Positions 61,509 through 64,000 of a DNA stretch of 64,000 nt are shown here, one piece after another. Below the pieces are notes generated by a model. That model was not told the origin of the DNA and searched no databases. It saw nothing but the letters and a program-made list of their open reading frames with translations. The translations under genes and the position numbers were made by a program. Numbering within the stretch: position 1 is the stretch's first letter; each line of letters starts with the position of its first letter. The stretch covers positions 61,205-125,204 of the forward strand of contig PAHY01000064.1 in the NCBI GenBank assembly GCA_002705055.1, in the 5' to 3' direction. This DNA comes from Planctomycetota bacterium (GTDB lineage Bacteria; Planctomycetota; UBA1135).

Positions 61509-61992
61509 GCTCTTCCGCCTCCCGGTTCGGGTCCGGCAGCTGCTGCTGGGGCTGTCGATCGCCATCATCGTGGCCGCTTCGATGCGGCCCGGAAAAGCAG
61601 GGGGGACGCCGCCATGGACGCTGGATTTCACGCTCAATCTGGGGCACCAGTTCCTCTATGGCTTCTTCACGCTGTGCGCGCTGCTGCGCCTGCATCCACG
61701 TGCGCCGCTGCATCGTCAGACCTGGATTGCCATGCTGGGCCTGGTCTTCGTCATGGGGGTGCTCGACGAATGGAATCAGAGCCGCGTCGGCGAACGAGGG
61801 GTCGGCTTCTTTGACGTCATCTCCGACTGTCTCGGCTGCTTCCACATTTTGGTCCTGACGCGCTGGTTCAGTGAGCCGCGGCGACTCGGCCCTTCTCTCC
61901 GCCTCATGGCGGGGCTGGCTGTCCTGGGACTTGGCTGGAACCTGTTTCTGGTCGAATCCGGCACCGACATTCCCATTCCCTTCCTCGACTGA
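61492..61992 (+). CDS. VanZ-like family protein
   Basis: TM segments; FVMGVLDEWNQSRVGERGVGFFDVISDCLG. Confidence 0.8.
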   Translation: MALYPELFRLPVRVRQLLLGLSIAIIVAASMRPGKAGGTPPWTLDFTLNLGHQFLYGFFTLCALLRLHPRAPLHRQTWIAMLGLVFVMGVLDEWNQSRVGERGVGFFDVISDCLGCFHILVLTRWFSEPRRLGPSLRLMAGLAVLGLGWNLFLVESGTDIPIPFLD

Positions 61993-63431
61993 TGACTGAC
62001 CGTCACTCCCGCTACTCCTCCCCGCTGGCCGAGCGCTACGCAAGCGCGGCCATGCAGCAGAACTTCTCGTCGCGTCGGCGTGCATTGATCTGGCGCGACC
62101 TCTGGATCGCGCTCGCCGAGTGTGAACAGGAGCTGGGGCTCGATATCAGCGATGAGCAGATTCAGGAGCTGCACGCGGCACGCGAGCAGATCGATCTCGA
62201 CAAGGTCGCCGAGTACGAGCGCGAGCTGCGCCACGATGTGATGGCCCACGTCCACGCCTACGGCGACGTCGCTCCGAAGGCGCGCGGCATTCTGCATCTG
62301 GGTGCGACCTCCTGCTTCGTCGCGGACGGCTCGGACCTGATCATGATGAAGGCCGGCTTGGAGATTCTGCGCGACCGGCTGGTCGCCGTCGTGCGCGCGC
62401 TCGCGGCCTTCTGCGAACAAGAGGCCGCGCATCCGATCCTTGGCTTCACGCACTTCCAGCCGGCTCAGCCGACCACCCTCGGGAAGCGCGCCGCGCTGTG
62501 GCTGCAGGACTTCCACCTTGATCTCGAAGAGCTGGATCGGCTCATCGACCGCCTGCCGTTCCGCGGCGTCAAGGGCACGACGGGCACGCAGGCAAGCTTC
62601 CTGCAGCTCTTCGGAGGTGACCACGAGAAGGTGCGCGAGCTCGACCGGCGGGTCACGCAGCGGGTCGGCTTCCAGCAGCCGATTCCGGTCTGCGGGCAGA
62701 CCTATCCGCGCAAGTGGGATGTGCTGGTGCTGCAGGCAGTCGCGGCGATCGGCACTTCGGCGGCGAAGTTCGCCAATGATATTCGCTTGCTGGCGCACCG
62801 CCGCGAGCTGGAAGAGCCCTTCGGCAAGAAGCAGATCGGCTCCTCGGCGATGCCCTACAAGCGCAACCCGATGCGCTCCGAGCGGATCGGCGCGCTCTCG
62901 CGCTATCTCGTCAATCTCACGCCGAACGCATCCGAGACCGCCGCGCATCAGTGGTTGGAACGCACCCTCGATGACTCCGCCAATCGCAGGATCGCGATCC
63001 CCGAGTCATTCTTGGCAGCCGACGCCATCTTGCTGCTTGTCCAGGATGTCAGCTCGGGGCTGGTGCCCTACCCGCGCGTAATCGAGCGGAATCTGGCTCA
63101 CGAGTTGCCCTTCATGGCCACGGAGTCGATCCTGATGGCAGCCGTGCAGGCTGGGGGAGACCGCCAGGATCTGCACGAGCGCATCCGTGTTCACAGTCAC
63201 GCGGCAGCAGCGCGCATGAAGACCGAAGACGGGGTCAACGACCTGCTCGAACGGATCCAAGCCGATCCCGCTTTTGCGGGGATCGCTGGCCAGCTTGCGG
63301 ATCTGGTTGATCCCCAGGCGTTCGTCGGTCGCGCCCGGGAGCAGGTCGAGGAGTTCCTCGCCGAGGTCATCCGTCCGACGCTGGCTCGGTTTGAAGGTGT
63401 CGAAGCTGCCGAAGGCGAGGTCCGCGTCTAG
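61992..63431 (+). CDS. purB: Adenylosuccinate lyase
   Basis: LHLGATSCFVADGSDL, VKGTTGTQASF, GSSAMPYKRNPMRSERIG. Confidence 0.95.
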   Translation: MTDRHSRYSSPLAERYASAAMQQNFSSRRRALIWRDLWIALAECEQELGLDISDEQIQELHAAREQIDLDKVAEYERELRHDVMAHVHAYGDVAPKARGILHLGATSCFVADGSDLIMMKAGLEILRDRLVAVVRALAAFCEQEAAHPILGFTHFQPAQPTTLGKRAALWLQDFHLDLEELDRLIDRLPFRGVKGTTGTQASFLQLFGGDHEKVRELDRRVTQRVGFQQPIPVCGQTYPRKWDVLVLQAVAAIGTSAAKFANDIRLLAHRRELEEPFGKKQIGSSAMPYKRNPMRSERIGALSRYLVNLTPNASETAAHQWLERTLDDSANRRIAIPESFLAADAILLLVQDVSSGLVPYPRVIERNLAHELPFMATESILMAAVQAGGDRQDLHERIRVHSHAAAARMKTEDGVNDLLERIQADPAFAGIAGQLADLVDPQAFVGRAREQVEEFLAEVIRPTLARFEGVEAAEGEVRV

Positions 63432-63460
63432 ACGGCGACGTTTTCATAGGACCGAAAAGG

Positions 63461-63496
63461 AAACGGGCCCTGCCGATCACTCGGCAGGGCCCGTTT
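63461..63496. terminator. Bidirectional intrinsic terminator between convergent purB and the Cys-rich repeat gene
   Basis: Perfect 16-bp inverted repeat AAACGGGCCCTGCCGA-TCAC-TCGGCAGGGCCCGTTT. Confidence 0.9.
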
Positions 63497-63511
63497 CAGT
63501 TTGCCGTCTGC

Positions 63512-64000
63512 TTAGAGCTGACCAGCGATCCGCTCGAGCATCATCTCGATCCGCGCGAGGCGATCTTCGATGCTGGCCATGCGGGACTCAAGCTCGACCG
63601 ACTTGGCCGAGGCCACTTCAGCGCTGAGCTGGACGACTTCCGCCTCCATGGCGCAGGCAGTCTCTTCCAGGGCGACCAGAGTCTCGACCTCTTCGCAGCA
63701 GCCGGAGCACTCTTCGGTCACGTCCTCAAGAGCAACGAGCTCCACAACGACTTCCTCTTCGCAGGTGGTCTCGCAAGCGCTCTCGCAAGCTTCGACTTCC
63801 AGCACGACCAGCTCTGCGGCAGCATCGCCCTCGCAGCAGCAGGAGCCACACTCTTCAGCGGCGACTTCCTGAGCGACGAGCTGAGCAGCGACAGTCTCTT
63901 CGCAGGCAGTCTCGCAGGCGCTTTCGCATGCTTCGACTTCCATGACGACGACCTGGGCAGCGGCTTCCCCTTCGCAGGCGGTTTCGCAAGCCGAGGCGCA
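63512..64000 (-). CDS. Cys/Glu/Ala/Val-rich tandem-repeat protein, 5' end beyond window; C-terminal coiled-coil-like tail
   Basis: Frame stays open from the ORF-track ATG at 63943 through 64000; 47-aa repeats (ACESACETACEE…EECGSCC). Confidence 0.7.
   Translation of the reverse strand, partial: CASACETACEGEAAAQVVVMEVEACESACETACEETVAAQLVAQEVAAEECGSCCCEGDAAAELVVLEVEACESACETTCEEEVVVELVALEDVTEECSGCCEEVETLVALEETACAMEAEVVQLSAEVASAKSVELESRMASIEDRLARIEMMLERIAGQL
63620..64000 (-). repeat. 141-bp (47-codon) coding tandem repeat made of two ~24/23-aa half units
   Basis: CGCAGG(T/C)… block recurs at 63760, 63901 and 63973 (spacings 141 and 72 bp). Confidence 0.75.

Follow-up and report, generated by a model that had tools for sequence, protein, structure and literature searches.

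A cysteine-rich repeat protein family restricted to one planctomycete family and held beside purB, with a possible role in binding soft metals

The window, that is, the whole stretch of 64,000 nucleotides analysed here, corresponds to G000:C2:61205-125204 of a planctomycete metagenome-assembled genome (3.85 Mb in 64 contigs, 85% complete). At its edge, purB converges with the 3' part of a cysteine-rich gene that we call T1 (Table 1). The initial annotation had read this edge as the end of a repeat protein rich in Cys, Glu, Ala and Val, and the minus-strand frame yields exactly the residues that it quoted. We extended the contig, as had been proposed there, and recovered the whole gene (L004:716-1891, minus strand), which encodes 391 amino acids without an internal stop. 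No frame break is seen just upstream of the window; reading continues up to the ATG, located at L004:1891, which corresponds to window position 64687. An alternative upstream GTG would add 15 residues, and the exact start is therefore uncertain; MLSILTT and MLSLLTT in the two nearest relatives agree with the ATG.

Table 1. Features at the window edge (window positions)
Feature	Position	Strand	Remarks
purB (adenylosuccinate lyase), convergent neighbour	61992..63431	+	PF00206, PF10397; synteny anchor, outside the system
Terminator-like hairpin in the interval separating purB from the T1 gene	63460..63497	-	17 pairs, 4-nt loop; consensus match only, as shuffled sequence yields 1.3 such sites on average
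3' part of the T1 gene (residues 230-391 and stop)	63512..64000	-	Open frame, stop at 63512-63514
C-terminal coiled-coil tail, residues 365-391	63515..63595	-	ELESRMASIEDRLARIEMMLERIAGQL
Degenerate unit, residues 279-331	63695..63853	-	CxxCCC (CGSCCC), one CxxxCxxxC, CxxCC (CSGCC)
Third regular 50-aa unit, residues 230-278	63854..64000	-	Two CxxxCxxxC triplets; the unit's first residue falls outside the window

The N-terminus of the protein is hydrophobic and signal-peptide-like (MLSLLSTVLLLAPFAQ; signal peptides and lipoboxes were called by eye throughout, with no predictor) and is followed by Cys-rich sequence; the protein is probably exported. Its composition is 38 Cys (9.7%), 23% Ala and 16.6% Glu, with 72 acidic residues against 15 basic ones and only two aromatics. 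Upstream of the window edge the assembly carries nine ambiguous bases (N) within the gene, and 9/9 of these occupy the third base of a codon, fourfold-degenerate in six cases. The chance of all nine falling at third positions is about 5e-5, and the pattern is the behaviour of a translated gene under amino-acid constraint. The N are probably variants between strains or between repeat copies. We exclude an assembly artefact because the N are confined to third positions, because the differences between regular repeats are mostly synonymous (7 synonymous and 4 replacement codon differences between units 1 and 3) and because a gene is found at the matching place in independent genomes.

The regular repeat unit is 50 residues long and consists of halves of 24 and 26 residues, each with a CxxxCxxxC triplet near its start (DCASACETACEGEAAAQVVVMEVEA-CESACAAACEETIAAQLVAQEVAAK). 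The units span residues 125-174, 175-228 (54 residues, owing to a 4-residue insert that adds one Cys) and 229-278, and the triplets begin at residues 126, 150, 176, 200, 230, 254 and 301. Shuffling the sequence predicts 3.7 CxxxC motifs, whereas the protein has 18. From the part inside the window, two repeats of 47 residues with halves of about 24 and 23 had been described. Those two stretches are indeed alike, at 32/47 residues, but the spacing of 47 is that of the last, degenerate interval between triplets, and the unit length of the regular array is not 47. The coiled-coil-like tail that had been proposed in the same place is the best conserved part of T1 across relatives, with the consensus ExExRxxxLExRLxRIExLL. 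A BLASTP match to the T1 of G011 (E = 5e-6) is due to this tail, and one to that of G008 (E = 7e-7) lies in the N-terminal part. AlphaFold, run without an alignment on residues 230-391, gave two long helices in its best model with moderate confidence (pLDDT 76, pTM 0.44), while the other models scored lower and disagreed; a helical repeat region is thus suggested by prediction.

A search with the whole protein recovered no relative from the host genome, from 60 relatives or from the GTDB contigs. Since sequence search alone gave none, relatives were recovered only through synteny. The conserved flanks are purB on one side and, on the other, an isomerase-like gene, a DHH phosphoesterase gene, a ferredoxin-like gene and plsY. 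The nearest named purB homologue is that of Planctomycetota bacterium isolate NIOZ-UU23 (79%). We read this locus in 26 genomes of the host's taxonomic family, all of them draft metagenome assemblies, of which G010 and G019 were unreadable; repeats break the assembly in G014, G007 and G020, and G009 carries a run of N. Between purB and the isomerase/DHH block, 22/24 readable genomes hold T1, a second Cys-rich gene (T2) or both. T1 stands alone in 11 (G000, G004, G006, G007 as a fragment, G008, G011, G012, G013, G014 on two contigs, G017 and G020 as a fragment), T1 and T2 occur together in five (G001, G005, G009, G018, G022), and six have T2 alone (G002, G016, G021, G023, G024, G025), one genus having T2 only. 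The remaining two (G003, G015) have neither. Two other features of the locus stand out: in G016 (L152), about 5 kb of other sequence, seen in no other genome, separates the purB end from T2, and in G010 (L032:653-1994) the complete DHH phosphoesterase gene is directly preceded by part of a further copy, either a duplication or an assembly error.

In the order's other families, 20 loci show no Cys-rich open reading frame next to purB, and the six of these viewed in detail have only the isomerase-like gene between purB and the DHH gene. Out of 121 genomes, a T2 profile matched only the 11 that carry T2 at the locus. The simplest reading of both results is that the host's taxonomic family gained the gene. 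The proteins form an undescribed family that is restricted to one taxonomic family and fixed in synteny.

T1 and T2 differ in architecture. T1 consists of a signal peptide, a variable middle part and the C-terminal coiled coil, and the middle part does not align among the family's genomes although the locus is kept. Length varies by repeat gain and loss, from about 260 to 834 residues. The 834-residue relative in G006 (L036:10026-12527) has about ten near-identical units of ~28 residues (CDTKQKQECETKKACDSKAAAVTVSGKA), a case of rapid repeat expansion. T2 is a lipoprotein rich in Cys and Met, of 102-382 residues, with a lipobox-like start (LLVASC-QAP, LLGAC-QVPN), and its mature part contains 8-17% Cys, often in CDKMG, CPM or CSM motifs. 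AlphaFold gave no usable structure for a T2 lipoprotein (pLDDT 50). The T2 of G005 (L033:5989-6849) has two MTxEQRxxRM segments that match Metal_resist (PF13801) below the threshold (E 0.04) and recall proteins of the Spy/CpxP type.

The potential metal ligands are partitioned between the two proteins. Where T1 has no T2 partner it carries 15-64 Cys (4.7-9.7%), whereas T1 with a T2 partner has 0-7 Cys (0-2.4%) together with 4.3-10.4% Met and 4.4-7.3% His. The T1 of G005 has 31 Met and 14 His and repeats EMHGMRGMQ; that of G018 has 25 Met, 15 His and no Cys. C-x-M is over-represented in G012, G002, G009, G021, G022 and G023, and CxC is strongly depleted, with 6 occurrences in 21 proteins where about 55 would be expected. 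On a purB tree, on which four genomes first scored as T2 are now scored as T1 and T2, T1 occurs in the deepest branches and T2 is confined to one clade (support 80/97). The Cys-rich role seems to have moved from T1 to T2 once, with T1 later lost one or more times. The exchange of ligands lies in one clade and is hence essentially one evolutionary event.

The protein had appeared to belong to no nameable family, and no library family proved to match it: the G000 protein has no Pfam or NCBIfam match over the cut-off, 23 further members have no Pfam match over the cut-off, the PDB returned nothing by sequence, and by fold it returned nothing at E <= 0.001, with low TM-scores. The YTV proteins of Planctomycetales are likewise exported, Cys-rich, repetitive and fast-evolving proteins of Planctomycetota, but the family described here has CxxxC and C-x-M patterns and a coiled-coil tail in place of a YTV repeat. 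The YTV domain (PF07639) was found in 0/26 genomes of the family, and by hmmscan in neither the G000 protein nor the 23 members; the same search matched 4/4 Pirellulales-type control genomes, and membership of the YTV proteins is rejected. The copper storage proteins Csp1 and Csp3 share the high Cys content and CxxxC-type spacing on predicted helices, and exported Csp1 holds Cu(I) by Cys inside helical bundles (PMC7558416). Csp is, however, a compact four-helix bundle, in contrast to tandem repeats of up to 834 residues or short lipoproteins, and the G000 protein, which has no DUF326 (PF03860) match, is not counted among them. The sole DUF326 (Csp3-like) match in that genome is L189 (G000:C41:9850-9909); the contig that carries it, G000:C41, looks much lower in GC than the window (68%) and is probably a contaminant.

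In the periplasm, SilE serves as a His/Met metal sponge that is disordered until it binds metal and folds (PMC5008109). SilE/PcoE sponges resemble the present family in being exported, of low complexity and rich in metal ligands (Met and His in the partnered T1 proteins), but the main ligand here is Cys, we found no sequence similarity and no adjoining sil or pco genes, and a recognised SilE/PcoE family is rejected on the library searches above. CxC is a hallmark of metallothioneins. The bacterial metallothioneins SmtA and MymT share a very high Cys content, but the strong depletion of CxC and the signal-peptide or lipobox-like starts set the long, repeat-built proteins of this family apart from them. 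OmcA is a lipoprotein. The chlamydial pair OmcA/OmcB offers a parallel, a small Cys-rich lipoprotein beside a larger Cys-rich exported protein; our proteins have no Pfam match, and disulfide machinery (VKOR and DsbB) was mostly not found in their genomes, whereas Chlamydia has DsbA/DsbB (PMC6752827).

We propose that T1 and T2 may act as an extracytoplasmic soft-metal sponge, a reading to which we give slightly less than an even chance. T1 would be exported by its hydrophobic N-terminal signal and oligomerise through its coiled coil. Its repeat region, long, acidic, for the most part helical and dense in Cys, would bind thiophilic metal ions outside the cytoplasm, with Cu(I) the likeliest and Ag(I) or Zn/Cd possible. 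The ligand-bearing part could vary freely in sequence and length while ligand density is maintained. In one clade the thiol part would have passed to the membrane-anchored T2 and its T1 partner turned Met/His-rich, one genus retaining T2 alone. This reading is favoured because ligands trade among Cys, Met and His, as soft-metal binding predicts, because of the CxxxC excess in G000 and the C-x-M excess in six genomes, and because signal-peptide-like or lipobox-like starts accompany a locus kept in nearly all readable genomes; Csp1 and SilE are precedents for it. It is weakened by the lack of any metal-related gene linked to the locus, by the lack of a library match, by the depletion of CxC and by the single origin of the ligand trade. 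No conserved metal-regulator site was found in a crude 8-mer count over 21 upstream regions, in which the best 8-mers occur in 11/21 regions against 7-9 in shuffles that ignore relatedness and base order.

Among the roles suggested initially (metal or cluster binding, redox buffering or a structural function), we infer that metal binding fits best. The structural role would be that of a disulfide-cross-linked envelope protein, in which a Cys-rich coiled-coil rod, a small lipoprotein or both stiffen the envelope by intermolecular disulfides, as YTV or OmcA/OmcB proteins do. Other Planctomycetes have Cys-rich YTV proteins in their walls (PMC8567305), according to one description the planctomycete wall is a protein sacculus containing disulfide bonds (PMC2754498), and Cys-rich envelope proteins of chlamydiae are oxidised with DsbA/DsbB present (PMC6752827). 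Such a role would suit a protein that is very rich in Cys and repetitive, is probably exported, evolves fast, is specific to its lineage and has repeats predicted to form a helical rod, and its large exported and small lipoprotein forms parallel OmcB and OmcA. It is the main rival to the sponge, although we consider it less likely. YTV is absent from the family's genomes, and neither the Met/His richness of the partnered T1 proteins nor the C-x-M excess is explained by disulfide formation, which speaks for the metal-binding reading. VKOR was found in 0/26 genomes of the family and DsbB above the cut-off in 2/26, one being G015, which lacks the Cys-rich gene; it is therefore doubtful that the exported thiols form Dsb-type disulfides. 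This argument is weakened in turn because disulfides can form without either enzyme and the genomes are incomplete.

A redox function, with Cys as a sacrificial reductant store in an exported thiol buffer or a peroxide or sulfane-sulfur sink, would agree with the many thiols, the acidic soluble character and the few aromatics, but is improbable given that no redox partner gene lies near the locus and that T1 beside T2 is almost free of Cys. Length change by repeat gain and loss is shared with many surface proteins and would suit an adhesive or stalk-type repeat protein whose Cys serve only local intramolecular disulfides. T2 proteins of only 102-140 residues are still Cys-rich, however, and no structured domain is recognised, and we hold this idea to be very improbable.

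Returning to metal binding, we suggest, only tentatively, that the family represents a new class of exported metal-sequestering proteins restricted to this lineage, in which the ligand region evolves under loose constraint, as a "ligand cloud" of Cys, Cys and Met, or Met and His, at one locus, while the thiol role passes from T1 to a lipoprotein. If the proteins are metal sponges, they would show that soft metals can be held by exported repeats, a solution that ordinary homology searches overlook because conservation is limited to position, signal and tail. If they are envelope cross-linkers, a lineage that lacks YTV would have a YTV-independent means of keeping the planctomycete envelope together. 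On either reading, synteny has exposed an orphan family that is otherwise invisible.
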